Assembly: GCF_021582895.2 (NCBI RefSeq)
Contig: NZ_CP091139.2
Coordinates: 2,232,001 to 2,296,000, forward strand
Direction of reading: 5' to 3'
Origin: Microbacterium elymi
GTDB taxonomy: Bacteria > Actinomycetota > Actinomycetes > Actinomycetales > Microbacteriaceae
Length of the DNA: 64,000 nucleotides
Part shown: piece by piece, positions 1,150-18,681 of the stretch
How positions within the stretch are numbered: position 1 is the first letter of the stretch
How the letters are laid out: each line of letters opens with the position of its first letter
The notes under the pieces: model-generated
The model's database searches: none
What the model was told of the DNA's origin: nothing
What the model saw: the letters and a program-made list of their open reading frames with translations, nothing else
Position numbers and translations under genes: made by a program

Positions 1150-2273
1150 ATGCCGACGATCAACCTCGAGCGCGTAGAGAAGAACTACGGCGGCGGCGGC
1201 ACAAGCGCCGTGCAGGATCTCAACCTCGAGATCGGGGACGCCGAATTCATGTGTCTGCTGGGTCCCTCCGGCTTGCGGCAAGACCACCACCCTGCGCATG
1301 ATCGCGGGGCTCGAGCACCTCACCGGGGGCAAGATCGTCGTCGGCGAGCGGGCGGTCGACGCCGTCGACGACGGCGTCTTCGTGCCACCGGAGAAGCGCG
1401 GGATGGGCCTGGTGTTCCAGAGTTATGCGCTGTGGCCGCACCTGAGTATCCGCGACAACGTCGAGTTCGGCCTGCGTCTGCGCAAGGTCGACAAGAAGAG
1501 CCGCATCGCTCGCGCCGAAGCCGTCATGAAGGCTCTCGGCATCGAGAAGTACCGTGATCGCTACCCCTCGCAACTCTCCGGCGGGCAAGCAGCGCGTGGC
1601 CCTCGCCCGGATGCTCGCCGTCAGCCCCGACGTGCTGCTCCTCGACGAGCCACTGTCGAACCTCGATGCGCGGCTGCGGCTCGAGATGCGCGCAGAGCTC
1701 AAGCGCCTGCACGGCGAGTTCGACACCACCATCGTGTTCGTCACGCACGATCAGTGGGAGGCGATGACCCTCGCCACCAAGATCGCCGTGATGAGTGAGG
1801 GCGTTCTGCAGCAGGTGGGCACGCCCGACGAGATCTACAACAGGCCCGCGAACCGCTTCGTCGCGGAGTTCGTAGGCAACTCGCCGATCAACATCGTCGA
1901 ACTCGCCAACGACGCCGCCGGCGGCCTCGGCCTCGCCGCCATCGGCTACGCCAGCACGCGACTGGGCAAGCTGAAGGACCTGGGTTCGATCGGCATCCGT
2001 CCCGAGGCCGTGCACCTGGCCACCGAGCAGACGCCGGTGCCGGATGTCGCGTTCCACTGCCCGGCCGAGGTCAGCGGCATCCTCCCCACCGGCGGGAGCT
2101 GGATCGTCGAACTCACCGCCGCCGACCAGAAGCTCTTCATGATCACGAGCGAACCGCCCACCGTCGCCATCGGCGGCGACGTCCGCGCCTGGGTCAAGCC
2201 CGCGGACCTGCACGTCTTCGATACCGAGGGAGCGCGCTCGACGCTAGCCGACACGCTCCTGTCCCAGCTCTGA
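1150..2273 (+). CDS. ABC importer ATPase, FbpC/AfuC/PotA type
   Basis: Cytoplasmic ATP-binding subunit powering the upstream permease. After removing two spurious bases the protein is about 373 residues: Walker A GPSGCGKT at about 38-45, Q-loop in FQSYALWPH, signature SGGQQ near residue 142, Walker B LLLDEP near 161, H-loop in VTHDQ, and a C-terminal TOBE-like regulatory domain. Breaks are at 1271-1276 (GCTTGC within Walker A) and 1585-1590 (GCAAGC within the signature). Both restore perfectly when GCTGC/GCAGC is read, so this is not a real pseudogene. It sits between the permease and the first binding protein, all on the same strand. Confidence 0.92.
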
Positions 2274-2294: not shown

Positions 2295-3480
2295 ATGATG
2301 ACTGACACGAAATCCCGTCTGACGCGAACGACGCTGTTCGCCGTCGCCGGCCTCGCGACGGCAGGGCTGCTGATGACAGCCTGCGCCCCGTCGTCGGCCC
2401 CCGCCGAACCAGGATCCGCCCCGGCCGCCCTGGGCATCGCCGACGCCGACTACTCACTCGACGCCCTGATCGCCGCAAGCCAAGAAGGAGGGGCCGCTGA
2501 CGGTGTACGACTCCACCGGGAAGATCACCGACATGGCGGAGTCCTTCACGAAGGAGTACGGCATCAAGGCCACCGGAGTGAAGATGAAGGCCGGCGAGCA
2601 GCTCGACGTCGTCTCTCGCGAGGCGCAGTCGAAGAACGTGCGCGGCGATGTGTATCTGAACACCGACGTCTCGGCCATCGAGGCCGAGCTCGTGCCCCAG
2701 GGCTACGTCGTCAGCTGGTTCCCACCGGATCTGAAGGACGAGGTGCCCGCCCAGTACCAGTCGCCCGCCGTGATCACGCAGGAGGCGAACGTCTGGGCCT
2801 ACAACACGGAGCTCGCCGACTCGTGCCCGGTCAAGAACATCTGGGATCTCACCGACGCGAAGTGGAAGGGCCACCTGTCGTTCCAGGACCCGCTGCTCAA
2901 GAGCGACTACATGTACTGGTTCAACCAGTGGGCGATGCACGCCGACGACAAAATCGCGAAGGCCTACGAGACCAAGTTCGGCGAGCCGTTGAAGACCGAT
3001 GAGGACAGCGCGACGGCGGAATGGGTCAAGCGCCTCGCAGCGAACGAGCCACTCGTCACGAAGTCGGACGACGACGCCGCCACGACGGCCGGCGCACCCG
3101 GGCAGAAGGACCAGTTCCTCGCGTTCATCAGCACGGCGAAGTTCCGCGACAACGATGATGCCGGCCTCAAGCTCGGCCTATGCAAGGACATCGACCCGTT
3201 CTCCGGCCGGGCGTATCAGAAGGCCGCGGTGATCGCCTCGGGGACCAAGAGCCCGAACGCGGCGAAGCTGTTCGTGCACTACGTCTACACCAAGGACGGC
3301 ATCGCCCCGCAGACAGCAGACGGCAAGTTCTCCACGAACTCGACGGTTCCGCCGGCGGACGACGAGCCGAGCGGCGTCGGCGACATCTGGGACCAGATCT
3401 ACCAGTTCGACGCCACGACCGCGAAGGACGACTACGAGGCCCTTCCGGAATGGCAGGACTTCTGGCGGGTGAACGGATGA
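2295..3480 (+). CDS. lipoprotein substrate-binding protein 1 (AfuA/FbpA-like)
   Basis: Extracytoplasmic binding protein of the importer. A basic N-terminus and hydrophobic stretch lead to a lipobox with the acceptor cysteine at about residue 30 (LLMTAC), so it is membrane-anchored. The mature part begins near DAALIAA and has a VYDSTGKITDMAESF segment typical of the first ligand-binding loop in this class. Two ATGs (2295, 2298) follow a GAGGAG ribosome site; either could start translation. A break at 2475-2480 (GCAAGC for GCAGC) is corrected to read LIAAAKKEGPLT. It overlaps the next gene by ATGA. The product is clearly paralogous to the binding protein at 6003. The known relative AfuA of Actinobacillus binds sugar phosphates; the ligand here is inferred only. 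Confidence 0.88.
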
Positions 3481-4324
3481 TCGAGGCGCTCGAAGACACA
3501 CTGACCGCCGAGTCGGCCGCACTCAGGGAGACCGCAAAGGCCGCCGCTCGCGGCGTCGCCGACCAGCTTGCGCCGGGCGTTCCGTACCGACATGCGCGTG
3601 GATTTCAAACGCGACATGCACGACATCGTGACAGTCCACGACAAAGCGGCCGAGACGGCGATCGTGGCGCAGATCCTCGAAGACGTACCCGATTCGGTCA
3701 TCGTCGGTGAGGAGGGCGGCACCAGCGGCGACGGTCGCGTCACCTGGTACATCGACCCCATCGACGGCACGTCGAACTTCGCCCGCGGCATCGCGCTGTG
3801 GTGCGTGTCGATCGCCGCAAGCGGTGGAGGGACGCGTGATCGCCGGCGTCGTCTTCGACCCGATGGCAGAGAACCTCTTCTCGGCCGATCTGACGGGTGC
3901 CTGGTGCAACGGCGAACCGTTGTCCGCCGACGCTTCGGCGGCGGAGGCGGGGGCGACGATCGTCTCGAGCTTCCCGGCGGCGATCGACATCAAGATGTTC
4001 GGCGATGATGCGCTGCAGGCGCATCGGCTCCTGCTGGAGAACTTCCAGGCGGTCCGCAACCTCGGCAGCGGCGCCCTGAACCTGGCGCATGTGGCGGCCG
4101 GCTGGGCCGATGCGACCATGGGCTTCGCCACGAGCCCGTGGGACGTGGCCGCGGGCCTGCTGATCCTGCATCAGGCCGGGGGCCGCTATCGCGGGTACAC
4201 CCGCGGCGAGCAGTCCGCACCGCTCCAGCACGCCGAAGACTACTTCGGCGTCGGCCGCGGCGCCGAGTACCCCACGCTCGAGTCGGTCATCGAGACGCTC
4301 TCCCGGCGTCGAGGCAGGAACTGA
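3477..4324 (+). CDS. inositol monophosphatase family phosphatase 1
   Basis: Soluble Mg-dependent phosphatase of the IMPase/FBPase/CysQ fold, expected to release phosphate from a sugar or cyclitol phosphate in the cytoplasm. Metal-site motifs are present: GEEGG (motif around 3712), the hallmark DPIDGTSNF (about 3755-3781), and SPWDVAAG (about 4135) near the C-terminus. The start ATG overlaps the binding-protein stop (ATGA). Breaks are at 3566-3571 (GCTTGC, restoring DQLRRAFR) and 3817-3822 (GCAAGC, restoring SIAAAVEGRVIAG). Position inside an importer operon suggests it acts on the imported compound rather than on endogenous inositol phosphate. Exact substrate is not decided by sequence. Confidence 0.88.
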
Positions 4325-4325
4325 G

Positions 4326-5123
4326 ATGCCGACAGCCGTCCTGACGACGCCACGAGGGCTCCTGCTCGACTTCGGCGGGGTGATCGTGCAGTCCGAGCGC
4401 GCCGTCGGCTGGCAGCAGCGCCTGGGCGGTGAAGTGCACGAGCTCCTCGCCGGGAGTCTCGGCGCCCACGCCGTGCCGAGCCGCCGCCGCGTCGTCGGCG
4501 ACATCGTCGCCGGCACGGCCAGCGCCGGCAACTGGCGCGACGCGATGTCGCGGCCGTTCGCGCCCGACGAGCTCGGCTGGGCACAGTTCTGGGGCGACTT
4601 CGTCGCCGCGGACTGGCCGGCCCCGGCACGCGAAGCCGTCATCCGCGACGCGAAGGAGCTGTGCCGGCGACTCACCCTCGCCAAGGCGCACCGCGCCACG
4701 CGGCCGGGCATCCGTGAGCTGCTGATGACGGCGCGCCGGCAGGGCATCCCCGTCGCGGTGGTCAGCAATGCGCTCAGCGGACAGGTGCACCGCGCGTACC
4801 TCGACGAGAACGGCCTGGCCGACCTCGTCGCCGCGCAGATCTACAGCGACGAGGTCGGCATCCGCAAGCCCAACCCGCGGATGATCGTCCTCGGCGCCCG
4901 TGCGATCGACGTGGCGGTCGCCGACTGCTGGTACGTCGGCGACAACTTCGACCGCGACACGGTCTGTGGTCGGCGCGCCGGCGTCGGCGCGAACATCATC
5001 GTCGAGGCCCGCAGCACCTACGAGTTGCCCTACGACCTCGACGAGCAGCCTGACGCCGTCGTCCCCGACGGTCATGCCCTGCATGCGCTGTTCGAAGACT
5101 CCCTGAGCCGAAGCGGCTCGTAG
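4326..5123 (+). CDS. HAD-like hydrolase 1 (subfamily IA)
   Basis: Intact 265-residue haloacid-dehalogenase-like protein. Motif I is LLLDFGGVI, so the nucleophile Asp is present but the usual second Asp (DxD) is replaced by Gly, as in the YihX/variant-3 branch. Motif II is VVSNAL, the Lys of motif III is in GIRKPNP, and motif IV is WYVGDNFDRD, which supplies acidic Mg ligands. It starts 1 base after the IMPase stop and is followed 24 bases later by a close paralog. Likely a phosphatase on a small phosphorylated metabolite; which one is unknown. Confidence 0.85.
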   Translation: MPTAVLTTPRGLLLDFGGVIVQSERAVGWQQRLGGEVHELLAGSLGAHAVPSRRRVVGDIVAGTASAGNWRDAMSRPFAPDELGWAQFWGDFVAADWPAPAREAVIRDAKELCRRLTLAKAHRATRPGIRELLMTARRQGIPVAVVSNALSGQVHRAYLDENGLADLVAAQIYSDEVGIRKPNPRMIVLGARAIDVAVADCWYVGDNFDRDTVCGRRAGVGANIIVEARSTYELPYDLDEQPDAVVPDGHALHALFEDSLSRSGS

Positions 5124-5147: not shown

Positions 5148-5979
5148 ATGCCCCGCACACCCGACCATTCCGACCAGCTGTGCCTGCCCCGTGCCCTGCT
5201 GCTCGACTTCGGCGGTGTCGTCGTCGAGACGGAGAACAACCCCGACTGGCAGCTCGTGTTCGCGCGCCAGCTGGTCGCCGAGATGCACACCGACGGCATC
5301 GACCTGCTCGATGTGGTGGCGGTCGAGCGCGACCTGCGCGCCGGCGCGAAGGCCGACTCGCGGTGGAAGGACGCCATGTCGCGGCCGTTCGCCCCCGCCG
5401 AGCTGCGGTACGAGCAGTTCTGGGCGGACTTCGTCGCGGCCGACTGGCCGGCGCCCGCACTGCACTGGGTGACCGAGCGCGCGCGCGAGCTGTGCCGGCA
5501 GATGGGCGAGCTGAAGCAGACCCGCCGCACGCGCGTCGGGATGATCGAGCTGCTCGACGCCGCCGATGCCGCCAGGGTTCCGGTGGGGATCGTGAGCAAC
5601 ACGCTGATGGGAGTCGTCCACCGTGACTACCTCGACGCGTACGGGCTGGCCGATCGGTTCGCCGCCCAGATCTACAGCGACGAGGTCGGTGTGCGAAAGC
5701 CCAACCCGCAGATGATCGTGCTGGGCGCCGAGGCCGTGGCAGTGCCCGTCCCCGACTGCTGGTACGTCGGCGACAACTTCGATCGTGATGCGCTGTGCGG
5801 CGCCCGCGCCGGCGTCGGCGGCAACATCATCATGGAGGCGCGCGACACGTACGACCAGCCGTACGACCTCGCCATCCGCCCGCACGCCATCGTCACCGAC
5901 CCCCTCGAGCCTGCGCGAGCTGTTCCTCGATGCCGTCGGCACCGCCCTCCCATCGCAGACCCAATCCACCCCCGTGTAG
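5148..5979 (+). CDS. HAD-like hydrolase 2 (paralog of the preceding gene)
   Basis: Second HAD-like protein in tandem with the one at 4326, sharing LLLDFGGVV, the EQFWADFVAADWPAP core (positions about 5413-5457), VGVRKPNP and WYVGDNFDRD. The start follows a GGAGAG ribosome site. The C-terminus breaks at 5909-5914, where GCCTGC stands for GCTGC; correcting it gives LELRELFLDAVG and a stop at 5979. As in its neighbour, the second Asp of motif I is Gly. The tandem pair suggests duplication with divergence, perhaps toward two phosphate esters or two positional isomers. This is inference; no substrate residues are recognisable. Confidence 0.84.
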
Positions 5980-6002
5980 CACCATCACAGACAAGGAAGT
6001 CA

Positions 6003-7190
6003 ATGAAACGCACCACCACGCGGCGGACGGGTGTCGCCGCACTCAGCATGCTCGGCGCCCTCGCCCTCGGGTTCTCCCTGGCGGGGTGCGCGCCGTCCTC
6101 CGCGCCTCAGGCCGAAGCCACCGGCGACGTCGAGATCGGCATCCCGGACGACGGATTCACGCTCGACAAGCTCATCGCGGCGGCCAAGGAGGAGGACGGC
6201 ATCACCGTCTACGACTCCACCGGCAAGATCGTCGACATGGCCGAGGCCTTCTCGAAGAAGTATGGCGTGAAGGCCACCGGCGTGAAGGTCGAGGCCGACG
6301 CGCAGGCCGACATGGTCATCCGCGAGGGCGAGTCGGGCAACGTGCAGGGCGATGTCATCCTGCTCAGCGATGCCGCCGAGGCGATGGGCGAGCTCATCCC
6401 GCGCGGCTATGTCACCAGCTGGATGCCGCCGGACAAGACGGATGTCGTCCCCGCCGACATGCGCGACCCGCTCGTGATCAACTTCAGTGCGAACGTGTGG
6501 GCCTACAACACCGAGGCGTACAAGACCTGCCCGGTGGAGAACATGTGGGCGCTGACCACCGACGACTGGAAGGGTCGCGTCTCGTTGCAGGACCCGCTGC
6601 TGAAGCCGCAGGACACCGACTTCTGGAACCAGCTCGCGACCCACGCCGACGACGAGGTCGCCGCCGCCTACAAGGAGTTCTTCGGCGAGGACCTGAATAC
6701 TGATGAGGACAGCGCGACGGCCGAGTGGGTCAAGCGTCTCGCACAGAACGGCCCGCTGCTGAACAAGAGCTCGGACAACATCGCCGAGTCGATCGGGGCC
6801 CCCGGGCAGGACAAGCCGTTCTTCGGCGACATCGCGACCTCGAAGTTCCGCGAGAACGAGGACAGCGGCTACAAGCTCGGTCTGTGCGACACGATGTCGC
6901 CGTGGCCGGGTCGGATGTACCCCAAGGTCGCGCTGATCGCCGCCCAGACCAAGAGCCCGAACACCGCCAAGCTGTTCGTCGACTACCTCCTCACCGAGGA
7001 GGGCATCGAGCCGCAGACCTCCGACGGCAAGCCCCCCGTGCTGAAGGGCGTCGAGCTGCCCGCCGACGAGGCGAGCGGCGTGTCAGCGGTGCTCGACCAG
7101 CTGTACGTGACCGACACGTCGACGGCGGACAAGGATCTTGACTCCCGGCAGTACTGGCAGGACCTCTGGCAGGTCAACTACGCCGGCTGA
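6003..7190 (+). CDS. lipoprotein substrate-binding protein 2 (AfuA/FbpA-like)
   Basis: Intact second binding protein, 395 residues, with a lipobox ending at Cys29 (FSLAGC). It repeats the architecture of the protein at 2295: PDDGFTLDKLIAA, VYDSTGKIVDMAEAF, NVWAYNTE, TDEDSATAEWVKRLAQ and a Trp-rich C-terminus. An AAGGAAG ribosome site precedes ATG 6003. No second permease or ATPase accompanies it, so both binding proteins probably feed one translocator, extending its ligand range or affinity. Absence of any frameshift here, in contrast to its paralog, fits the idea that breaks depend on local sequence motif rather than on gene decay. Confidence 0.9.
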   Translation: MKRTTTRRTGVAALSMLGALALGFSLAGCAPSSAPQAEATGDVEIGIPDDGFTLDKLIAAAKEEDGITVYDSTGKIVDMAEAFSKKYGVKATGVKVEADAQADMVIREGESGNVQGDVILLSDAAEAMGELIPRGYVTSWMPPDKTDVVPADMRDPLVINFSANVWAYNTEAYKTCPVENMWALTTDDWKGRVSLQDPLLKPQDTDFWNQLATHADDEVAAAYKEFFGEDLNTDEDSATAEWVKRLAQNGPLLNKSSDNIAESIGAPGQDKPFFGDIATSKFRENEDSGYKLGLCDTMSPWPGRMYPKVALIAAQTKSPNTAKLFVDYLLTEEGIEPQTSDGKPPVLKGVELPADEASGVSAVLDQLYVTDTSTADKDLDSRQYWQDLWQVNYAG

Positions 7191-7233: not shown

Positions 7234-7256
7234 CAGCCATGAGAGAGGACGAGAGC

Positions 7257-8069
7257 ATGACCATCGAAGCGACCGAGTCCCGCCGGCTGAAAGATGCCGC
7301 CGCCACCGCCGCGCGCGCGCAGCGGGATCCGCTGCGACGGGCGTTCCGCGGCGAGATGACACTCGGCTTCAAACGCGACGCGCGCGACATCGTCACCGAG
7401 TACGACAAGGCGACCGAGCATGCCCTGGTCGCGCAGATCTCCGCCGACGTGCCGGATTCGTCCTTCCTGGGCGAAGAGGGCGGCGCGACCGGCGAGGGTC
7501 GCGTGCGCTGGTACATCGATCCCATCGACGGGACGAGCAACTTCGCCGTGGGCTTCGCGTTCTGGTGCGTGTCGATCGCGGCGGAGGTGGACGGACAGAT
7601 CGTCGCGGGCGTCGTCTACGACCCGGTCGCCGACATCCTGTTCTCGGCGGATGTCGGCGGTGCCTGGCTCGATGACCGCCCACTGCGGGCACAGGGCGCG
7701 CAGACGGAGGCCGAGGCCACCCTCATCACCGGCTATCCCAACGCGCGAGAGATCGATGCGCACGGCGACGTGGCGCTCGAGCGCTTCGGTGCCCTCGTCG
7801 GGGCGCACCGCGCGCTGCGCAGACCCGGCAGCGCGACCATGAGCGTCTGCCATGTCGCGGCCGGCTGGGTGGACGCGGCGGCGGGCTTCAGCGTGAACCC
7901 GTGGGATGTGTCGGCCGCGGGATTCATCCTCACCCAGGCCGGTGGCGTCTACCGTGCCATGGGCGGGGCCGCCGACGCCCCCTGGCACCACCGCCCCGGA
8001 TACGTCGCCACCGTCGCGGGACTGAAGTGCCCCACCCTCGACGCGGTCGCGGAAGCCATCACCGGATGA
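7257..8069 (+). CDS. inositol monophosphatase family phosphatase 2
   Basis: Intact 270-residue IMPase-family phosphatase, paralog of the enzyme at 3477. It has LGEEGGA, the signature WYIDPIDGTSNFAVGF and NPWDVSAAGF, which together bind the catalytic Mg ions. ATG 7257 is chosen because AGAGG lies about 9 bases upstream; the in-frame ATG at 7239 has no ribosome site. It is the last gene of the operon and is followed by a strong hairpin. With the myo-inositol catabolic genes less than 1 kb downstream, dephosphorylation of an inositol phosphate is an attractive role, though the family also hydrolyses fructose bisphosphate, PAP and histidinol phosphate. Confidence 0.9.
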   Translation: MTIEATESRRLKDAAATAARAQRDPLRRAFRGEMTLGFKRDARDIVTEYDKATEHALVAQISADVPDSSFLGEEGGATGEGRVRWYIDPIDGTSNFAVGFAFWCVSIAAEVDGQIVAGVVYDPVADILFSADVGGAWLDDRPLRAQGAQTEAEATLITGYPNAREIDAHGDVALERFGALVGAHRALRRPGSATMSVCHVAAGWVDAAAGFSVNPWDVSAAGFILTQAGGVYRAMGGAADAPWHHRPGYVATVAGLKCPTLDAVAEAITG

Positions 8070-8112: not shown

Positions 8113-8887
8113 TCAGTACTCGTCCTCGTTGTCGTCGTCGTTGATCCACCAGCGCGCCTTCTTCACCTTGGGATCGAGCGTCATGCGCGACACCGCGCGC
8201 TCCAGCGGCCCGGCATCTTCCAGTGCCGACTGCAGCGAGGCCTGCAGGGAGACGGTGCTGCTGTTCTTCTTGTGTGACGCCGACACCGCCAGCAGCTTGT
8301 ACTCGGGCCTGTTCAGGGTCTGCAGCAGCAGGGCGCGCACGCGCGGCTCCGACTTCTCGCTCGTGACGACCTCGAACACGTACTCGGTCTCGTCCGGCGT
8401 CATCGCCATCGCCCGACGGCTGCGCCGGTTGACCGACTTGCCGAGCCACCGCAGCAGGATGTTCGCGGCGATGATCACCACAGTGCCGACCGCCGCCACG
8501 AAGTACATTCCCATGCCCGCGAGGCATCCGAGCGCCGCCGAGCACCACAGCGTGGCGGCGGTGTTCAGACCGCGGATGTTCAGCCCCTCGCGCAGGATCA
8601 CTCCGGCGCCGAGGAACCCGATGCCCGAGACGACCTGGGCGGCGACGCGGGTGGGGTCGGCGCTCGTGCCGTTGCCGAACGCGTACGCCCCCATGACGAC
8701 GAACAGCCCCGCGCCGGTGGCGACGAGGGCATTGGTGCGCAGGCCCGCGAGGCCCGCCCGCCACTGGCGCTCGAGCCCGACGGCTTGCGCCCACGACGAG
8801 GGCGAACAGCACACGGAGGGCCAGCTCGATGCCGCTGGGCTCCGTTGTGAGCGACAACAGTGCCGATACGTCCATATGTAGTGACAT
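8113..8887 (-). CDS. MgtC/SapB family membrane protein
   Basis: Membrane protein with an MgtC-type N-terminal domain (GLERQWRAGLAGLRTNALV, then GIGFLGAGVIL and GLNTAATLWCSAA) of about five hydrophobic segments, followed by an ACT-like cytoplasmic tail and an acidic end (DDDNEDEY). The family is linked to magnesium limitation and phosphate/ATP homeostasis in other bacteria. A frame break at 8783-8788 (GCTTGC on +) is repaired to VVGAAVGLERQW. Start at 8887 (MSLHMDV) is the longest option; Met5 is an alternative. It separates the importer/phosphatase operon from the iol genes but is transcribed against both, so it is probably an independent unit. Confidence 0.85.
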
Positions 8888-9001: not shown

Positions 9002-9973
9002 GTGGCCGAAGAAGGCACCGGGATGCGCCCGCACGACGTCGTGACGATGGGCCGAGTCGGCGTGGACCTGTATCCCACGCGTTCCGGCGTGGGACTCGAA
9101 GACGTCGAGACCTTCACGAAGTCGGTCGGCGGCAGCGCCACCAACGTGGCGATCGCCGCCGCCGTGCACGGCCGCCGTGCCGGCGTCATCACCCGCGTCG
9201 GCGACGACCCGTTCGGGCGCTTCATCGCCCGCGAGCTCGGCCGCTTCGGCGTCGACGTGAGCCAGGTAGCGGCGCTGCCCGGCGAACAGACCCCGCTGAC
9301 GTTCTGCGAGATCTATCCGCCCGATGACTTCCCGCTCTACTTCTACCGCCGGCCCAAGGCCCCGGACCTGCAGATTGAACCGCACGAGCTCGACGCGAAG
9401 GTGATCCGCGATGCGCGCATCTTCTGGGCGACGGTGACGGGGCTGAGTGCCGAGCCGAGCCGCTCGGCCCATCACGCGGCATGGGATGCGCGCGGCCGGG
9501 CACCGTTGACCGTGCTCGACCTCGACTACCGGGCGATGTTCTGGAGCAGTCGTGCCGAGGCGTCGCAGGCGGTCGCCCAGGCGCTGCCGAACGTCACCGT
9601 CGCCATCGGCAACGCCGAGGAGTGCGAGGTCGCGGTCGGGGAGACCGACCCGTATCGGGCGGCCGACGCGCTCCTCGCGCGGGGCGTACAGCTCGCCGTC
9701 GTCAAGCGCGGGCCCCTGGGCGTCCTCGGGCGCACGGCCGAGGAGACCGTCGAGGTCCCCGCGCATCCGGTGGACGTCGTCAACGGCCTCGGCGCCGGCG
9801 ACGGCTTCGGCGGCGCCCTGTGTCATGCCCTGCTGGAGGGGTGGTCACTCCAGCGCAGTCTTCGCTTCGCCAACGCGGCAGGGGCGATCGTGGCCGGCCG
9901 CCGCGAATGCTCGACGGCGATGCCGAGCACCGCCGAGGTGGAGGCGATCATGTCGGGAGGATCCCATGAATGA
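9002..9973 (+). CDS. iolC: 5-dehydro-2-deoxygluconokinase
   Basis: PfkB-family carbohydrate kinase, 323 residues, phosphorylating 2-deoxy-5-keto-gluconate in inositol catabolism. Visible motifs are GGSATNVAIAAA with the substrate-binding Gly pair, VGDDPFGRF, and the C-terminal catalytic box NGLGAGDGFGGAL with the DG catalytic base. GTG 9002 is chosen from the family alignment start (VAEEGTGMRPHDVVTMGR); ATG 9023 is an alternative. An AAGGGA ribosome site lies about 10 bases upstream. It overlaps the next gene by 8 bases, consistent with translational coupling. Operon identity comes from the surrounding iol genes. Confidence 0.92.
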   Translation: MAEEGTGMRPHDVVTMGRVGVDLYPTRSGVGLEDVETFTKSVGGSATNVAIAAAVHGRRAGVITRVGDDPFGRFIARELGRFGVDVSQVAALPGEQTPLTFCEIYPPDDFPLYFYRRPKAPDLQIEPHELDAKVIRDARIFWATVTGLSAEPSRSAHHAAWDARGRAPLTVLDLDYRAMFWSSRAEASQAVAQALPNVTVAIGNAEECEVAVGETDPYRAADALLARGVQLAVVKRGPLGVLGRTAEETVEVPAHPVDVVNGLGAGDGFGGALCHALLEGWSLQRSLRFANAAGAIVAGRRECSTAMPSTAEVEAIMSGGSHE

Positions 9974-10860
9974 CACCTACGAGCAGATCCGGCGGATCCG
10001 CCTGCATGAACCCGAGCAGATCGCGGAGCTCGCCCGCCGGCGGGTGACGCGACCGATCGCGCGCGACGACGGGCGGCCGTGCTGATCGCCGCCGACCACC
10101 CGGCACGGGGTGCGCTGCGCGTCGGGTCGGACGAGTCAGCGATGAGCGACCGGTACGACCTCCTCGACCGACTCGCCGTCGCGCTCGCCTGTCCCGGTGT
10201 CGACGGCCTGCTGGCGACTCCCGACATCGTCGAAGATCTGCTCATCATGGGCGTCCTCGACGACAAGGTGATCGCCGGATCGATCAACCGGGCGGGCCTG
10301 CCGGGAGCCGTGTTCGAACTCGACGACCGCGTCACCGCGTACACGCCGGGCGCCCTGTCGCGGGCGGGCCTCGACTTCGGGAAGGTGCTGCGCGCATCGA
10401 TCTCCAGGATCCTGCGACCGCCCCCATGCTGGAGACCGTCGGGCGGCTCGTCAGCGAGTCGGCGGCGCTGCAGCTGCCGATCATGATCGAGCCGTTCCTG
10501 ACGACCCGGCGCGACGGCCGGGTGGTCAACGCCCTGACGGCCGACGCGATGGTCCAGGCGGTCTCGATCGCGGCCGGGCTCGGCGACACCTCCGCCTACA
10601 CCTGGCTGAAGCTGCCGGTCGTGCCCGACATGGAGAAGGTCATGGCCGCCACCACCCTGCCCGTGCCGCTGCTCGGCGGCGACCCCGACAGCGGCGCCGA
10701 TGACATCTACCGCGCATGGCAGGACGCCCTCGTCCTTCCCGGGGTGCACGGCGTCGTCGCCGGGCGCCGGCTGTTGTACCCGGAGGACGGACGGGTGGCG
10801 GATGCGGTGGCCACCGCCGCGAGCATCGTGCACGCGCCGACGCCGGCCGTTGCGCGCTGA
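9966..10860 (+). CDS. Cgl0159-like (beta/alpha)8 aldolase for deoxy-ketogluconate phosphate
   Basis: About 300-residue TIM-barrel protein resembling the corynebacterial Cgl0159 family and DhnA-type class I aldolases. In the iol pathway it would take the place of IolJ, splitting 2-deoxy-5-keto-gluconate 6-phosphate into dihydroxyacetone phosphate and malonate semialdehyde. Readable pieces include LIAADHPARGALRVG, GVLDDKVIAGSINRAGLPGA and MIEPFLTTR. Two breaks are not of the common type: near 10070 one G seems missing from GGGCGGG, and near 10395-10400 the local sequence has lost or gained bases before DLQDPATAPMLE. Placement directly between iolC and iolA is the main support for function. Confidence 0.78.
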
Positions 10861-10886: not shown

Positions 10887-12390
10887 ATGGACACACACAC
10901 CCCGGTCATCCCGCACTGGATCGACGGAGCCCGCACGACCGGCTCCGGTGCCCGCACAGCACCGGTGTACGACCCGGCCCTCGGCACGCCCCGGGCCGCA
11001 GTCGTTCTGGCCGACGACGCCGATGTGCGGGCCGCCGTCGACAGCGCGAGGGCCGCCGCCCCGACTTGGGGAGACCTGTCGGTAACCCGTCGGCAGCGTG
11101 TCATGTTCGCATTCCGCGAGCTGCTGAACGCCCGCATGGACGAACTCGCGCTGCTGATCACGCAGGAGCACGGAAAGGTCGTCTCAGATGCGCTGGGCGA
11201 GATCGCCCGCGGCCTCGAGGTCGTCGAATTCGCGACGGGGTTCGCGCAAGCTGACGAAGGGCGAGTTCTCCGACAACGTCTCCACCGGTGTCGATGCGTT
11301 CACCTTCCGCCAGCCGCTCGGCGTCGTCGCGATCATCTCGCCGTTCAACTTCCCCGCCATGGTGCCCCTGTGGTTCGCGCCGATCGCCCTCGCCGCCGGC
11401 AACGCCGTGATCCTCAAGCCGAGCGAGAAGGACCCGAGCGCCGCCGTCTGGATGGGCGAGCTGCTGGCGGAGGCCGGTCTGCCCGAAGGCGTCTTCACCG
11501 TGCTGCAGGGTGACAAGCAGGCTGTCGACGGGCTCATCGAGAGCCCGGATGTCGCGGCGATCTCCTTCGTCGGCTCGACGGCGATCGCGCGCTCCGTGTA
11601 CGAGCGCGGCTCGGCGCAGGGCAAGCGGGTGCAGGCGTTCGGGGGAGCCAAGAACCATATGCTGGTCCTCGCCGACGCCGATCTCGACACGGCCGCCGAC
11701 GCCGCCGTCAGTGCCGCCTATGGCTCGGCCGGGGAGCGTTGCATGGCGGTCAGTGTGGTCCTCGCCGTCGAGGAGATCGCCGACGATCTCGTGCGCCGCA
11801 TCGACGAGCGTGCGGCGACGCTCCGGGTCGGCGACGGACGGCGCGACTGCGACATGGGTCCGCTGGTGACGGCGCAACACCGCGAGCGCGTCGCGTCGTA
11901 CATCGATGTCGCCGCACAGGACGGCGCCACCGTCGTGCGCGACGGCCGGGACATCACCGTCGACGGCGATGACGCGGGCTTCTGGCTCGGCCCGACCCTC
12001 ATCGACCGGGTCCCGACCTCCTCGGCCGTCTATTCCGACGAGATCTTCGGGCCGGTGCTCTCGGTGGTGCGGGTGCGCGACCTCGCCGAGGGGATCGCTC
12101 TGATCAACACGTCGCGCTACGGCAACGGAACCGCGCTGTTCACCGCCGACGGCGGCGCCGCCCGGCGCTTCCAGCGCGACGCGCATGTGGGCATGATCGG
12201 CGTGAACGTGCCGATCCCGGTGCCGGTGGCATTCCACTCCTTCGGGGGCTGGAAGGACTCCCTGTTCGGCGACACGAAGGCGTACGGCCCCCAGTCGTTC
12301 CAGTTCTTCTCTCGAGAGAAGGCCGTCACCCTGCGCTGGCCCGAGCACATGAGCGCCGGACTCAGCATGGGCTTTCCCGGCAACGACTGA
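10887..12390 (+). CDS. iolA: methylmalonate-semialdehyde / malonate-semialdehyde dehydrogenase (CoA-acylating)
   Basis: NAD-dependent aldehyde dehydrogenase, about 500 residues, converting malonate semialdehyde to acetyl-CoA and CO2 at the end of the inositol route. The nucleotide-binding loop (SPFNFPAMVPLW), FVGSTAIARSVY, the AFGGAKNHML segment and the catalytic Cys in GSAGERCMAVS are all present; the last is typical of the MMSDH/IolA branch. A break at 11246-11251 (GCAAGC) is repaired to GFAQLTKGEFSDNVS. A CAAGGAG ribosome site precedes ATG 10887. It ends 2 bases from the converging regulator gene. Confidence 0.93.
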
Positions 12391-12392
12391 GG

Positions 12393-13136
12393 CTACTTGT
12401 CCACGAGAGTGATCTCGAACGAGTACATGTCCGGGAGGTAGGAGTGATTGCCGAACTCGATGGCGTTCCCCGAGTCGTCGTACAGCGTGCGCGACATGGT
12501 GAGCACCGGGGAACCCACCGGCTGATGGAACAGCGCGCCTTCCTCCGCCGTCGCTGCACGGGCGCCGATGCGCTGCTTGGCCACGCGCATCGTCGTCCCG
12601 CGCGTGCGCAAGCTGGTACAGGCCGTGATCCTTCAGCAGCGAGACGTCGAGATCCGAGAATTGCGGGCTGAGGTAGTTCTCCAGGAGCGCGAATGGTGTC
12701 TCGTTGGCGTAGCGCAGGCGCTTGATGCGCAGCACGGGAGTCGCCGTGGTGATGCCGAGGGCCTCAACGACCTCGTCGGGGGCCGGCGTGACTTCATGCA
12801 GGCAGGCATCGTGCTCGGGCTCATGTGCGAGCGCTGCAGGTCGTCGTACAGACTGGTCAGCTCGACCTTGCGGTTGACGCGGCCGTGCACGACCTGGGTG
12901 CCCACGCCGCGCCGGCGCACGAGCAGTCCCGAGTCGACGAGTTCCTGGATCGCCCGACGGACGGTCGGGCGCGAAAGCCCCAACTGCTCGGCGAGCTTGA
13001 TCTCGTTCTCGAGCTTGGATCCCGGAGGAAGGTCGCCGCGTTCGATCGCCGCCTCGATGCGTCGGGCGAGTTGGTAGTACAGCGGCACGGGACCCGATCG
13101 GTCCACGTCGAGAAACAGTTGCGAGATCTTTTCCAT
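12393..13136 (-). CDS. GntR family (HutC/UTRA) regulator of the iol genes
   Basis: N-terminal winged helix (YYQLARRIEAAIERGDLPPG, then KLAEQLGLSRPTVRRAIQEL, positions about 12945-13085) followed by a UTRA ligand-binding domain that ends in MYSFEITLVDK. Breaks at 12608-12613 (GCAAGC on +) and near 12826 (unclear, beside GCGCTGCAGG) split the C-terminal domain; the corrected protein is about 248 residues. It is divergent from iolG and encoded within the iol region, so it is the natural candidate for an inositol-responsive regulator equivalent to corynebacterial IolR. Both flanking iol promoters carry a shared inverted repeat (8951 and 13208). Confidence 0.85.
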
Positions 13137-13219: not shown

Positions 13220-13264
13220 ATTGAGGATGCCCGATGATGGGCAGAAGGAGCGATGGAGGTCCGA

Positions 13265-14268
13265 ATGCGACTTGGAGTGATCGGCACGGGCAGGATCGGG
13301 AGCCAGCACGCTGCTGTGCTGGCCGCACGCAGCGACGTGGACGAGGTGATCGTCTGCGACGTCGACGGCGATCGTGCGCGCGGGGTCGCCCAGCAGGTCG
13401 GCGGTTCTGCGGCCGAGGGCACTGCGGCGCTGTTCGCGGCGCAACCGGACGGGGTGCTGATCGCCGCTCCCACCTCACAGCACGCCGCCCTCATCCGCGA
13501 GGCCGTCCGCGCGCAAGTGCCGGTGTTCTGCGAGAAGCCGGTTGCGCAGTCGCTGGCCGACACCGTCGCCACGGTGGCCGAGGTCGAATCGAGCGGCATA
13601 CCTGTGCAGATCGGCTTCCAGCGACGCTTCGACGAGGGCTACCGGAGAGTGCGCGACGCCGTCCATGGCGGCCAGGTGGGCGAGCTTGCGTCGGATGCAC
13701 CTGCTCACCTGCGATCCCGCGCCACCGCCCGCCGAGTACGTGCCGCACAGCGGGGGCATCTTCCGCGACTGCCACATCCACGACTTCGACATCCTCCGAT
13801 TCGTCAGCGGCCGTGAGGTCGACAGCGTGACAGCCCTCGGCGCCAACCGGGGCGCAAGCGTTCTTCGCGGAGGCCGGCGACGTCGACGAGTCGGTCGTGC
13901 TCCTGACCCTGGACGACGGCACGCTCGTCACGATGCAGGGGTCGCGCTACAACGGAGCCGGGTACGACGTGCGTCTGGAAGCCGCCGGCACTGCGGGCAC
14001 CGTCGTGGCGGGGCTGTCGGACAAGACACCGGTGCGCAGCGCCGAGCCGGATGTCGCCTTCCCCGCCGACGCCCCCTGGGCCGGCTTCCTCGAGCGATTC
14101 GCCGATGCGTACGTCGCCGAGCTCGTCGCCTTCATCGAGGTCGTCCGTTCGGGCGCGGCCGTCGTGTGCACGCCGCGCGACGCACTGGAGGCGCTGTACG
14201 CCGCCGAGGCGGCCGACCGCTCGCGTCGGGAGGGCCGCACCGTGCGCATCGCCGAGGTACGCGGATGA
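13265..14268 (+). CDS. iolG: inositol 2-dehydrogenase-like oxidoreductase (Gfo/Idh/MocA)
   Basis: NAD(P)-dependent dehydrogenase, about 334 residues, expected to oxidise myo-inositol (or an isomer) to the inosose. Rossmann motif GVIGTGRIGSQHA is at residues 4-16, the conserved FCEKPVAQS carries the catalytic Lys, and HDFDILRF contains the catalytic His/Asp region of the family. ATG 13265 is preferred because GGAGGT lies just upstream and the Rossmann strand begins at once; ATG 13253 is possible. Breaks at 13684-13689 (GCTTGC) and 13854-13859 (GCAAGC) restore to GELRRMHLL and NRGAAFFAEAG. It overlaps iolE by ATGA. Confidence 0.88.
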
Positions 14269-15145
14269 CCGGCGGGCGCATCGCCGGCGCGCCGATCAGC
14301 TGGGGCGTGTGCGAGGTTCCCGGATGGGGGCACCAACTCTCGGTCGAGCGCGTGCTCGGCGACATGCGAGACATCGGCCTCGCGGGTACGGAGTTCGGTC
14401 CCGACGGGTTCCTCCCCGGCGCGCCCGAAGCCCGGCGGGACCTTCTCGCCGCTTACGGTCTTGCCGCCGTCGGCGGCTTCATCCCGGTCGTGCTCCACGA
14501 TCCGGACATCGACCCGGTCGCCGACATCGAGCGGCGCACCCCGCATTCGTGCGCGCCGGCGCCGACCGCGTCGTGCTGGCCGCGGCCACCGGGCAGGACG
14601 GCTACGACTCCCGTCCGGCGCTGGACGACGAGGGGTGGGCGACCCTGCTGGGCAACCTCGACCGCGTCGCCGCCGCGGTCCGCGAGCACGGCCTCGCGGC
14701 ATCCCTCCACCCGCACATCGGCACGATGATCGAGACCCGCGACGAGATCGACCGGGTCCTGGCCGGCACGCAGATCCCGCTGTGCCTGGACACTGGTCAC
14801 ATGACGATCGGCGGCACCGACGTCGCCGCGTTCGTCGACGAGCACGCCGGGCGGATCGGCCACGTGCACGTCAAGGATGTCGATGCGGCCCTCGCTGCCC
14901 GCGTCCGCAGCGGCGAGATCGCTTACACGGACGCCGTGCGGCACGGGCTGTACACCGCCATCGGCACGGGTGACATCGACCTCGACCGCATCGTGGGAGC
15001 CCTCGAGCGCGCCGGGTACCGCGGGGTCTACGTGCTCGAGCGCGACGTCATCCTCGACGAGGCGCCGCAGCCCGGCGACGGACCCGCCGCCGACGTCGCG
15101 GCCGCCGCCACCTACCTGCGGAACCTCCTTGCGAGGGCGGCATGA
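14265..15145 (+). CDS. iolE: inosose dehydratase
   Basis: Xylose-isomerase-like TIM barrel that dehydrates 2-keto-myo-inositol. The start reads ISWGVCEVPGWGHQL, a typical IolE opening, and metal-binding segments are visible in SLHPHIGTMIE, LCLDTGHMTIGG and HVHVKDVD. A one-base loss near 14540 in a C run breaks the frame between DIERRT and AFVRAGADRVVL. Start and stop overlap iolG and iolB by ATGA on each side, indicating tight coupling in the iolGEBD operon. Confidence 0.92.
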
Positions 15146-15997
15146 CCGGTTTCGTGCGCGCAGGCGCCGGGGCCACCGTCGTCGACGTCGCACCCGACGG
15201 CGTCGAATGGCGCTACACGGGACTCGTCGTCCGGCGGATGGGCCCGGGTGAGACCGTCGGGCTGACCACGACAGGACGCGAGACGCTCATCGTCCCCCTC
15301 GCCGGCGGCGCTGACGTGGCCATCGACGGCACGATGCACACGCTGGCCGGCCGGCCGTCCGTCTGGCACCAGACCGACGTGCTCTACGTCCCCGAGGGTG
15401 CGGACGCCGCTGTGAGCTGCGAGTCGGACGCACGGTTCGCGTTCTGCTGGGCGCCGACGCGGGTGCGGCATCCCGTCCAGCACATCACCCCCGCCGAGGT
15501 GGGCGTCGAGCTTGCGCGGGGCGGGAGTGTGCTCACGGGAGGTGCGCAACCACGGGACGCCGGCGCACCTGCACGCCGACCGGCTCATCGTGTGCGAAGT
15601 GCTGACCCCCGGCGGCGAATGGTCGAGCTACCCGCCGCACAAGCACGACGCGGAGGGTCCCGACGAATCGGAGCTCGAGGAGATCTACCACTACGAGATC
15701 GCCGCGTCGCCCACCGGCACGCCCGGCTTCGCCCTGCAGCGGGTATACGCCTCCGACGCGCGCGACATCGACCTGGCGCGCGAGGTGCGCGACGGCGACA
15801 CCGTGCTGATCCCGTACGGCTACCACGGGCCGACCGTCGCCGCGCCCGGACATGACCTCTACTACCTCAACGTCATGGCGGGACCGGGCACCGGGCCGGC
15901 CCGCCGATGGCTGATCACAGACGATCCCGCGCATGCGTGGATCCGCCAGACCTGGCCCGAGCTCGAGGTCGATCCTCGGCTCCCGTTCCGGAGGTGA
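15142..15997 (+). CDS. iolB: 5-deoxy-glucuronate isomerase
   Basis: Bicupin-fold isomerase, about 284 residues, converting 5-deoxy-glucuronate to 2-deoxy-5-keto-gluconate. The conserved stretch EWSSYPPHKHDAEGPDESEL (15619-15678) supplies the metal-binding His and Glu residues, followed by LEEIYHYE and IPYGYHGPTVAAPGHDLYYL. A break at 15510-15515 (GCTTGC) restores VELRGAGVCSREVRNHGTP. The stop overlaps a GGAGG that serves as the iolD ribosome site. Confidence 0.93.
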
Positions 15998-15998
15998 C

Positions 15999-17893
15999 AT
16001 GTCCACCGTCAGATTGACGGTCGCGCAGGCGACCATTCGATTCCTCGCGCAGCAGTACACACGCCGGGACGGCGTCGAGCATCGACTCGTCGAGGGGTTC
16101 CTCGGCATCTTCGGCCACGGCAACGTCGCGGGCATCGGGCAGGCGCTGCTGGAGGCCGAGCTGCACGATCCGGCCGAGATGCCCTACATCCTCACCCGGA
16201 ACGAGCAGGGTGCCGTCAACGCCGCCGTCGCCTTCGCCAAGGACCGGGATCGGCTCTCGACCATGGCGGTGACGACGTCAGTCGGTCCGGGCGCGATGAA
16301 CATGATCACCGGTGCGGCGCTGGCGACCACGAACCGCATTCCGGTGCTGCTGTTCCCGGCCGACGTGTTCGCGAATCGGCGTCCCGACCCGGGTGCTCGA
16401 CGAGCTCGAGCGCCCGCAGAGTCGTGATGTCAGCGTGAACGACGCGTTCCGCGCCGTCTCGGTGTTCTTCGACCGCGTGTGGCGGCCCGAGCAGCTGCCC
16501 GCCGCCCTCCTGGAGGCCATGCGGGCGCTGTCCGACCCGACGCAGGCCGGCGCCGTGGTCGTGGCGCTGCCCGAGGACGTGCAGGCCGAGGCGTTCGACT
16601 GGCCGGAGGAGCTGTTCCGACGTCGCACCTGGGCGATCCCCCGCACGCCGGCCGACGCCGACGCCGTGGCCGAGGCCGCAGCGATGATCGCCGGGGCGCG
16701 ACATCCCCTCATCGTCGCGGGAGGCGGCGTGCACTACTCGCGGGCCGGCGACGCGCTCGCCGCGTTCGCCCGGCGGCTCGGGATCCCCGTCGGACAGACG
16801 CACGCCGGGAAGGGAGTCCTCCCGCCCGGCCACGCGATGGACATCGGCGGGCTGGGCGCCACCGGCACGACGGCCGCCACCGCGCTCGCCGGCGACGCCG
16901 ACGTGGTCATCGGCATCGGAACGCGCTACTCCGACTTCACGACGGCCTCGATGAGCCTGTTCCAGAACCCCGACGTGCGGTTCGTGAACATCAACATCAC
17001 CCCGATGGACACGCCGAAGCTCGCCGGTCTTCCGTTGCTCGGCGACGCCCGCACGGTGCTCGCGCAGCTCGAGTCGGCGACGGCCAACGCGGCGCCGGAG
17101 CCGGCCCACGGGGCGCGGGTCGCCGAGCTTGCGCTCCGCATGGGATGCCGAGCGCAGCGCCGCCGTCACCCAGGACTGGGCCGCGCACAGCGCCCTCGGC
17201 CTGCCGAGTCAGGCCGAGCTCATCGGCATCCTCAACGACGAGCTCGCCCCCGAGGACGTGATCGTCAACGCGGCCGGCAGCGCCCCGGGCGACCTGCACC
17301 GGATCTGGGAGCCGCTTTCGCCGCGCCAGTACCACGTCGAGTACGCGTTCTCGACGATGGGCTACGAGGTGGCGGGGGCGCTCGGCGTGAAGCTCGCGGG
17401 AGGCGACCGTCAGGTCGTCGCCTTCGTCGGCGACGGGTCGTACCTGATGCTGTCGCAGGAGCTCGTCACGGCCGTCGCCGAGCGGCAGAAGCTCGTGGTG
17501 GTGCTCGTCGACAACCGCGGGTACGCCTCCATCGGCAACCTCTCGGAGTCGGTCGGCTCACAGCGGTTCGGCACGAAGTACCGGTATCGCGACACTGCAT
17601 CCGGGCGCCTGGACGGCGACGGCTTGCCGGTCGACTACGCCGCGAACCTGCGCAGCCTCGGGGTCGAGGTGTTCGAGGCCGACTCGACCGCATCGTTCCG
17701 GGATGCCGTGCGGCGCGCGCTCGCCGCCGACGAGACCGCCGCGATCTACGTGCGCACCGATCCGCTCGCCCCGTCGGCCCCTGGTGGCGCATGGTGGGAC
17801 GTGCCGGTGGCCGAGGTGTCGTCGCTGCCCAGCACGCAGCGCGCGCGGGCGCAGTACGAGCACGACGCGCGCGCGCAGCGGTGGCATCTGTGA
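15999..17893 (+). CDS. iolD: 3D-(3,5/4)-trihydroxycyclohexane-1,2-dione hydrolase
   Basis: Thiamine-diphosphate enzyme, about 630 residues, opening the cyclohexane ring in inositol catabolism. The N-terminal Pyr domain has the activating Glu in ILTRNEQGAVNAA, and the C-terminal PP domain has FVGDGSYLML and LVDNRGYASIGNL, which bind Mg-ThDP. Breaks are near 16390 (one extra G in DPVLDELERP) and at 17127-17132 (GCTTGC, restoring ELRSAWDAER). GTGA overlap with the following phosphoesterase gene places that gene in the same operon. Confidence 0.93.
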
Positions 17894-18681
17894 CGGTGTA
17901 CTTCGCGGTCGCCGGAGACGTGCACGGCCGGTGGGCGGGTCTTGCCGACGACATCCGGGTGGCGGCGGGCTTCCTTCCCGACGGCGCCGAGCTGTCGGCG
18001 GTCTTCCAAGTCGGGGATGCGGAGCCCACCGCCGACGAGGAGCAGCTGGCGGAGGTGCACATCAAGCCCGAGCGCCGGCGCCTGAGCGACTTCGCCGATG
18101 TCAAGGCCGGGCGCATCCGCTTTCCGGCGCCGGTCTACTTCATCGGCGGCAACCACGAACCCTGGCGCACGCTCGACGAGAACGGCGGCTTCATCGCCGG
18201 GGGAGCGCGTCTGGCCCCCGACGTCTGGTTCCTCGGCCGCGCCGGACACGCGCACATCGCCGGGATGGACGTGGCCTTCCTCTCCGGCATCCGACCGCCC
18301 GACGGCCGCCCGCTGCGCACCTGGGAACGGGCGCGCAGCGCCGAGACCCGCGTGCACGGCTACTACAGCGTCGAGGAGGTGCTCCGCCTCTGCACCGCCG
18401 GGCCGGCCGACATCGTGCTGACCCACGACTGGCCCGCCGGCAGCGGCTACGTGCACAAGACCGCCTACGTCGGCGACCCCGCCGTGCGTCGAGCGCTCGA
18501 GCTGGTCGCTCCCGCCGCGAGCTTCCACGGGCACTATCATCGCAGCGACCGCTTCCGCACCCTCGGCGTGGACGTCTTCGCACGCGGATGCTTCGACCAG
18601 GGCGTGCCCGAGGCCGTGGCGGTGTTCGCGTTCGACGAGGACACCCGGCGGGTGCGACAGCTGGAGCACGTCGCCTCGTGA
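17890..18681 (+). CDS. calcineurin-like metallophosphoesterase resembling Dbr1
   Basis: Intact 263-residue phosphoesterase. Metal-site motifs run in order: GDVHG (residues about 8-12), QVGDAEP, GGNHEPW, THDWPAG and GHYHRSDRF. The combination of GGNHE, a LSGI strand, a YYSVEEVLRL helix and THDWP resembles the catalytic domain of eukaryotic lariat-debranching enzyme Dbr1, except that the first Cys ligand typical of Dbr1 is Asp here. Translationally coupled to iolD by GTGA. In this context it might cleave a phosphate ester or diester feeding inositol use; RNA debranching is not implied. Confidence 0.8.
   Translation: MTVYFAVAGDVHGRWAGLADDIRVAAGFLPDGAELSAVFQVGDAEPTADEEQLAEVHIKPERRRLSDFADVKAGRIRFPAPVYFIGGNHEPWRTLDENGGFIAGGARLAPDVWFLGRAGHAHIAGMDVAFLSGIRPPDGRPLRTWERARSAETRVHGYYSVEEVLRLCTAGPADIVLTHDWPAGSGYVHKTAYVGDPAVRRALELVAPAASFHGHYHRSDRFRTLGVDVFARGCFDQGVPEAVAVFAFDEDTRRVRQLEHVAS

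Follow-up and report, generated by a model that had tools for sequence, protein, structure and literature searches.

A metallophosphoesterase of the Dbr1 branch in an inositol-associated gene island of Microbacterium, with a candidate role in phosphorylated-inositol salvage

Introduction

Why does a Microbacterium genome carry, directly behind the inositol catabolism gene iolD, a reading frame that resembles the eukaryotic lariat-debranching enzyme Dbr1? The question is raised by a stretch of 64,000 nucleotides, here called the window, and it concerns both the kinship of the encoded protein and the pathway in which it may act. Phosphorylated inositol is abundant among the organic phosphorus compounds of soil, and the gene island described below predicts a concrete and testable pathway for its use by bacteria. 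A literature search on bacterial ABC importers of inositol phosphates (inositol phosphate and glycerophosphoinositol uptake) found no paper, nor did one on bacterial Dbr1-branch enzymes (Dbr1, prokaryotes, retrons, CWF19L1), bioRxiv being outside the scope of both searches and subscription papers being thinly covered. In the part of PMC10470207 available to us, Dbr1 is called the only known enzyme that selectively hydrolyses lariat 2',5' bonds. The available portions of three bacterial or phage papers (PMC4569894, PMC6022877 and PMC7642983) mention 'Dbr1-like' solely when enumerating members of the superfamily, while in that of PMC12039810 yeast DBR1 is employed as a reagent.

Results and Discussion

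The reading frame and its immediate surroundings

The Dbr1-like frame (Table 1) is unbroken and aligns collinearly with its homologs, while many frames in the window are broken, including those of iolD, iolA, iolB, iolG and several transporter genes; given this, and the listed completeness of 68% for the 3.57 Mb genome, frameshift errors in the assembly are likely. The GTG start codon of the frame (17890-17892) and the TGA stop codon of iolD (17891-17893) form a 4-nt overlap, which an earlier note, made from the sequence alone, had read as translational coupling. The overlap is real; yet an alternative in-frame GTG lies six bases further on, at 17896, and by inspection no clear ribosome-binding site precedes the frame, so that either GTG may serve as the start and the coupling is plausible but unproven.

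Table 1. Features of the window from the ABC importer genes to the Dbr1-like frame (window coordinates).
Feature	Coordinates	Strand	Basis or remark
ABC permease	4..1141	+	begins upstream of window (seen in L109); tblastn 76% and 83%; PF00528 twice in L023 homolog
ABC ATPase, frame broken	1150..2273	+	tblastn 67-71%
ABC solute-binding protein 1, frame broken	2319..3480	+	tblastn 46% and 62% to L022 SBP1
Inositol-monophosphatase-family phosphatase 1, frame broken	3565..4324	+	tblastn 74% and 57% to L022 IMP1
HAD-family phosphatase	4326..5123	+	PF00702 E 4e-17
HAD phosphatase then solute-binding protein, single frame	5148..7190	+	PF00702 and PF13531; separate genes in L022 and L023
Inositol-monophosphatase-family phosphatase 2	7239..8069	+	PF00459 E 2e-47
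MgtC-family membrane protein	8113..8814	-	PF02308 E 6e-35
iolC kinase	9023..9973	+	tblastn 66% to L022 IolC (passes TIGR04382)
iolJ-like aldolase, frame broken	10094..10860	+	tblastn 53-60% to L022; named by position, no curated model passed in L022
iolA-type dehydrogenase, frame broken	10908..12390	+	tblastn 57-67% to L022 protein above TIGR01722 cut-off
Presumed GntR-type regulator, frame broken	12393..13136	-	assumed type, named by eye from sequence; piece 12393-12590 clusters with L024 15092-15856
iolG-like Gfo/Idh dehydrogenase, frame broken	13253..14268	+	tblastn 37-47% to L022 IolG (passes TIGR04380)
iolE, part in one frame	14654..15145	+	tblastn 35% over 133 aa to L022 IolE (below TIGR04379 cut-off)
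iolB, frame broken	15208..15997	+	tblastn 54% and 41% to L022 IolB (passes TIGR04378)
iolD, broken	15999..17893	+	tblastn 51-53% to L022 IolD (passes TIGR04377); pieces 15999-16427, about 16354-17124, 17129-17893
GTGA overlap, start codon of Dbr1-like frame with iolD stop	17890..17893	+	found in window only
Dbr1-branch metallophosphoesterase, 263 aa	17890..18681	+	GTG start, TGA stop; D10 H12 D43 N88 H89 H179 H215 H217 metal/catalytic set

Membership of the Dbr1 branch

The motifs GGNHE (residues 86-90), THDWP (178-182) and YYSVEE (158-163) listed in the earlier note are present in the encoded protein, and the likeness to the Dbr1 fold claimed from them is far above chance. A phmmer search of the single protein against PDB, admitting E values up to 10, returned five distinct Entamoeba Dbr1 sequences and nothing else (E 1e-11 to 6e-10). 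Pfam returned the general Metallophos model alone (PF00149, 27.9 bits against a gathering score of 21.5), and an NCBIfam search with the same protein gave no match. Relatives were collected by scanning genome contigs with an alignment of the window protein and three relatives (A1), which yielded 75 loci, mostly from Actinomycetota, Myxococcota, Cyanobacteriota, Acidobacteriota and Pseudomonadota, plus one Bacillota bin and three archaeal bins; the scan relied on two short motifs and was not exhaustive, and a second, more distant type of the family occurs in many myxobacteria. The first gene predictor used on these loci was crude, and a second one recovered the family homolog in 64 of the 75, so the gene calls are imperfect.

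A profile of 36 prokaryotic members (A2) matched Dbr1 with an E value of 2e-53 and CWF19L1 with 5e-17, followed by MPPED2 at 0.011; nothing besides the first two fell below 0.01, and GpdQ was absent among the matches at E up to 10. The comparison of structures that the earlier note had proposed gave the same ranking: with an AlphaFold model of the window protein (mean pLDDT 95.2, pTM 0.93), Foldseek returned Dbr1 at 3e-18, CWF19L1 at 1e-12 and the next protein at 8e-7, while VIA-align returned Dbr1 with a Z score of 27.3 (242 residues, rmsd 2.6), CWF19L1 with 21.5 and the next with 19.3. GpdQ, the Enterobacter metallophosphoesterase that hydrolyses glycerophosphodiesters, belongs to the same superfamily but is farther away in fold (Z 15.5). 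The N-terminal domain of the spliceosome factor CWF19L1 is thus second nearest to the window protein by profile and by fold alike; CWF19L1 carries further domains, of the Cwf19 type, at its C-terminus, whereas all 36 of the 36 members scanned with Pfam match Metallophos models only, and nothing seen in the window protein points to splicing. We regard it as virtually certain that the window protein belongs to the Dbr1 branch, and take the prokaryotic family as a group of relatives of Dbr1 and CWF19L1. In a tree, the four Microbacterium proteins form one clade (100/100), and the placement of Dbr1, which sits on a very long branch, is unsupported.

Residues kept and residues lost

Residues were compared in an alignment of 70 sequences, comprising Entamoeba Dbr1, the window protein and proteins from 68 of the 75 loci (L031, L088, L091, L093, L094, L095 and L096 were left out as duplicate, fragmentary or doubtful). 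The window protein shares with Dbr1 of Entamoeba histolytica (4peh, 5k77 and others) the whole metallophosphoesterase domain, collinear GGNHE and HDWP motifs and all metal or catalytic residues but the first, H16, D45, N90, H91, H180, H230 and H232 of Dbr1 corresponding to H12, D43, N88, H89, H179, H215 and H217. Each of these positions is kept in at least 64 of the 65 members from outside Microbacterium and in all four Microbacterium proteins. The earlier note was also correct in that the first ligand, Cys14 in Dbr1, is replaced by Asp (Asp10); yet the same holds for 69 of the 69 prokaryotic proteins aligned, and Asp rather than Cys is described as the usual first ligand of the superfamily in the available part of PMC4176325.

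Unlike Dbr1, which has an invariant Cys14, a C-terminal domain and approximately 354 residues, the window protein stops with the metallophosphoesterase domain. The position of Arg158, in the lariat recognition loop (130-158), is occupied by Val, Gln or Ala in the Microbacterium group, where the loop is of similar length and the alignment uncertain. Tyr64 of the Entamoeba enzyme, which together with His16 sandwiches the branch adenine according to the available text of PMC4176325, has a Tyr counterpart in 57 of the 65 other prokaryotic members, but is Arg in the four Microbacterium proteins (Arg62 in the window); Arg also occurs in two of the 65, L043 and L047, in which the local motif is degraded. 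Judged by its residues, the window protein is not a Dbr1, as Cys14, Arg158, Tyr64 and the C-terminal domain are all missing. The change from Tyr64 to Arg would be in keeping with a nucleobase clamp that was lost and with a shift toward a small, polar, phosphate-bearing ligand. In total, 27 positions are particular to the Microbacterium four; the basic Lys59, Arg62, Arg64, Lys190 and Arg232 are a selection from these, which also include the acidic Glu55 and Glu146, and the position of Arg64 is occupied by Lys in 22 of the 65 other members. With its catalytic set, the bacterial group offers an outgroup against which the Asp-to-Cys change, the lariat loop and the C-terminal domain of Dbr1 can be tested.

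A proposed inositol-phosphate island shared by the Microbacterium carriers

The Dbr1-like gene was found in four Microbacterium carriers, i.e., the window, L022, L023 and L024, and the same island is present in all of them. Its common content is an ABC importer, two inositol-monophosphatase-family (IMPase) genes, an HAD phosphatase gene and mgtC, with iol genes in three of the four; the names IMPase, HAD, MgtC, MFS and ABC rest on Pfam matches in L023, L024, L022 or the window, and the IMPase-family models also take in CysQ- and HisN-type enzymes. The order in the window is ABC, IMPase, HAD, HAD/solute-binding protein, IMPase, mgtC, iolC to iolD and the Dbr1-like gene, while that of M. bovistercoris (L022, genome G128) is iolC, iolJ-like, iolA, iolB, iolD, iolE, iolG, MFS-like, mgtC (reverse), Dbr1-like, ABC permease, ATPase, two solute-binding proteins, IMPase, HAD and IMPase. 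In the latter, IolC, IolB, IolD and IolG score above NCBIfam equivalog cut-offs, IolA above a subfamily cut-off and IolE below its own cut-off. M. hydrocarbonoxydans (L023) has the order of L022 within the examined stretch, which starts inside iolA. In L024 the ABC, IMPase, HAD and mgtC genes lie on one side of the Dbr1-like gene, while its other side has a Gfo/Idh gene and a gene that we take to be tautomerase-like; the examined stretch holds no iol set, the sole iol-type match being IolG-like at 29%. The Dbr1-like gene thus has three local placements, after iolD (window), between mgtC and the ABC permease gene (L022 and L023) and between mgtC and the tautomerase-like gene (L024), so that within the genus its position shifts while its membership of the island persists.

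Adjacency to iolD, on which the earlier note had built its case, is therefore no conserved trait: it is seen in none of the three other Microbacterium carriers, and no iolD match with E < 1e-15 was found in the stretches examined around the 72 other loci. Of the role in cyclitol or phosphodiester metabolism that the note had suggested, the part concerning cyclitol phosphates draws its support instead from the island common to the four carriers found. As points that would count against it, the note had named a coupling that is not conserved, which is what we find, and ordinary protein phosphatases as the closest characterised homologs, whereas these are Dbr1 and CWF19L1.

No such island was found in the stretches examined around the other loci. 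When 14 island genes of L022 (all but the Dbr1-like and ATPase genes) were used as probes at E < 1e-15 around the 72 other loci, many of them in short stretches, those for the permease, solute-binding proteins, IMPase, HAD, mgtC and iolJ/A/B/D/E/G gave no match, and only IolC did (L045, 30%). The ATPase, a member of a common family, matched at 10 of the 72, and at a looser threshold the cyanobacterial locus L076 has a gene clustering with IMPases at a distance of 8.4 kb.

Within the genus, the solute-binding gene (E <= 1e-20) is present in five of 149 genomes (G000, G036, G091, G102 and G128) and the Dbr1-like gene in two, G000, the window's own genome, and G128, both of which are among the five. 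Fisher's p for this co-occurrence is 9e-4 and rises to 0.027 when the window's own genome is left out, in genomes that are not independent of one another. G036 has the whole island, with iol genes directly beside the ABC operon, but no Dbr1-like gene; mgtC and the permease gene, which flank that gene in L022 and L023, are here 270 bp apart. The island can thus do without the enzyme, and no replacement phosphodiesterase was seen. G091 has the ABC genes and an IMPase gene, likewise without the Dbr1-like gene. The enzyme may be an accessory by which the island handles a broader set of substrates, as one would expect were the importer to accept plain inositol monophosphates as well.

Proposed function and its alternatives

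Some role of the protein in phosphorylated-inositol metabolism is probable. To the more specific proposal, in which a cytoplasmic Dbr1-branch hydrolase with a binuclear metal centre was recruited to phosphorylated-inositol salvage and cleaves an inositol phosphodiester such as glycerophosphoinositol, we give about even chances; the transported compound, the phosphodiesterase activity and the exact substrate are what we infer rather than observe. The ABC importer would take up a phosphorylated inositol compound, the Dbr1-like enzyme would split its phosphodiester (at a first guess glycerophosphoinositol, or else inositol 1,2-cyclic phosphate), the IMPase-family and HAD enzymes would strip the remaining phosphate, and the Iol enzymes would degrade the freed inositol. 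By analogy with Dbr1, a metal-bound water or hydroxide would attack the phosphorus, and His89, the equivalent of His91 in Dbr1, would protonate the secondary ring alcohol as it leaves. Glycerophosphoinositol is favoured as first substrate because the phosphate in its ester links a secondary ring alcohol to a primary CH2-OH, a layout like that of the 2',5' branch cleaved by Dbr1; other candidates are cyclic inositol phosphate and inositol polyphosphates. The place of the gene in an island that would take up and digest phosphate-bearing inositol suggests that the Dbr1 fold has been reused for sugar-like metabolism.

The same island, together with the group-specific Lys59, Arg62, Lys190 and Arg232, would also suit a phosphomonoesterase for inositol mono- or polyphosphates, such as phytate breakdown products, in which the added basic residues would hold extra phosphates, and the metallophosphoesterase superfamily does include monoesterases. 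We consider this rather unlikely, given that two IMPase-family phosphatases and one or two of the HAD type are encoded in the island anyway, and that diesters are the substrates of Dbr1 and of several proteins ranking next in fold (Mre11, Rv0805 and GpdQ).

A debranching or other 2',5'- or RNA-directed phosphodiesterase that lies in the inositol island by chance is suggested by Dbr1 being the closest characterised enzyme, by the Tyr64 equivalent retained in most other members and by a DEAD-box-like helicase gene just downstream of the family member in five myxobacterial loci (Pfam-checked in L068). For the window protein it is nevertheless improbable, since the features that set Dbr1 apart are missing and, in the available part of PMC4176325, Cys14, the loop and the C-terminal domain of Dbr1 each proved necessary when mutants were tested in yeast. 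Furthermore, neither the reverse transcriptase model RVT_1 nor the group II intron family RF00029 had a match in five Microbacterium genomes (the carriers G000, G128 and those of L023 and L024, plus G036), while 3 and 4 of 14 control genomes, respectively, responded; the RF00029 test covers one Rfam family, with 150 of the 151-273 first-look candidates scored in four of the five genomes and G000 incomplete. No branched RNA that the enzyme might open is thus evident in these cells.

The ligand of the importer bears on a further alternative, in which a metal chelate or another phosphorylated compound enters through the ABC system and is the substrate of the Dbr1-like enzyme, inositol being incidental. 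A profile of 12 solute-binding proteins (A3) matched, in PDB, 8x1a (titled G6P-binding VcA0625) at 6e-11, a ferric binder at 9e-11, metal-citrate binders at 6e-9 and AfuA at 3e-8, so that Fe(III) and metal-citrate binders fit nearly as well as sugar-phosphate binders. Foldseek, run on a model of the solute-binding protein (pLDDT 88.7), placed metal-citrate binders first and did not separate ferric, metal-citrate, opine and sugar-phosphate binders; the fold also fits pyridoxal-phosphate binders. Against a chelate, distant relatives of the importer in five genomes of the same order (G264, G276, G312, G408 and G434; 29-32% identity) lie beside an RpiR-like regulator and a histidine-phosphatase-like gene (named by eye, with a Pfam check for G434 only), a setting typical of sugar phosphates. 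In addition, the iol genes directly adjoin the ABC operon in L022, L023 and G036, and IMPase genes lie within the operon, which makes this alternative quite improbable. The importer matches and neighbours favour a phosphorylated sugar-like solute, short of proof. AfuABC, described in the available portion of PMC4546632 as a hexose/heptose-phosphate importer that was earlier annotated as an iron system, has a solute-binding protein of the same class (AfuA and VcA0625 are among the matches), but it is only distantly related to the window importer, which is joined to inositol catabolism.

An ordinary broad-range or protein phosphatase with no pathway role, in keeping with the general Metallophos models that Pfam returns, is highly improbable, as the lone protein phosphatase among the matches of the 36-member profile has an E value of 1.1 and the island is shared.

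The wider family

A mobile or phage gene was considered and rejected: no plasmid match was found, and none of the 114 viral-contig stretches that matched a motif encodes a relative. A protein of phage Pumpernickel proved to be a general relative (27.5%), with 77 bits on the family profile compared to 255-259 for three close members. Eleven weak matches (L003-L011 in eight genomes of the genus, L015 and L016 in two further genomes of the order) reach 39-58 bits on this profile and were not accepted as orthologs. A neighbour conserved across the family was likewise not recognised: in clusters based on the crude gene predictor and named by eye, the widest are common types (ABC ATPases at 14 loci, protein-kinase-like genes at 9 and MFS-like genes at 8), and the rest mostly join close relatives.

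In a wider and unlikely reading, the family would be a widespread, Asp-type bacterial sister group of the debranching enzyme, most members of which, retaining the Tyr64 pocket, would cleave 2',5'-linked or branched RNA (retron or group II intron products), and one Microbacterium lineage, through loss of the nucleobase clamp, would have turned the enzyme into the phosphodiesterase of an undescribed pathway for phosphoinositol uptake and salvage. Among 96 genomes from the family of G536 (Myxococcus), 70 have a member (E <= 1e-30) and 81 have an RVT_1 (reverse transcriptase) match, with both in 66 and neither in 11, an association (Fisher p 6e-5) that genome size and kinship confound; for genomes of at least 8.4 Mb among the 96, the counts are 62/1 versus 7/2 (p 0.04).

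Myxobacterial Dbr1-like genes

At five myxobacterial loci, belonging to Myxococcus and Pyxidicoccus (L062, L068, L077, L079 and L085), the Dbr1-like gene is followed on the same strand, after approximately 150-345 bp, by a gene encoding a DEAD-box-like RNA helicase. The helicase domains were confirmed by Pfam in L068, where a DEAD domain and a DbpA RNA-binding domain were identified. This adjacency may connect the wider Dbr1-like family with RNA.

Many myxobacterial genomes, among those drawn as the family of the Myxococcus genome G536, possess a second, more distant family member, which scores approximately 195-230 bits against the family profile, in addition to the member scoring 330-362 bits.

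Taxonomic placement and sequence quality

In the phylogeny of Dbr1-like proteins, the protein of locus L069, whose NCBI title reads Comamonas sp. KCTC 72670, nests within a Myxococcus clade (branch supports 100/99). Its 9.0 Mb genome (G537) was grouped in one family with a Myxococcus genome, and the Comamonas title seems to be a mislabelling. The Dbr1-like genes of loci L025, L026, L028, L036 and L037 form a single clade (100/100), and their source bins are titled Propionibacteriaceae, Micrococcales and Peptococcaceae (Bacillota), which suggests either cross-phylum transfer or a binning error. Locus L014 (G283:C75) contains a degraded Dbr1-like frame, scoring 47 bits against the family profile, in which a remnant is retained only around GDAEPQR...KHRKLGE and is followed by unrelated sequence.

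Within the window, a single open frame of 680 aa (5148-7190) encodes a HAD phosphatase together with a solute-binding protein, unlike the island-carrying loci of Microbacterium bovistercoris (L022) and M. hydrocarbonoxydans (L023), where these are separate genes; the joint frame reflects either gene fusion or a fault in the assembly. Numerous frames in the window are broken, including those of iolA, iolB, iolD, iolG, IMPase 1 and the ABC ATPase, and this, together with an assembly completeness of 68%, points to indel errors in the assembly.
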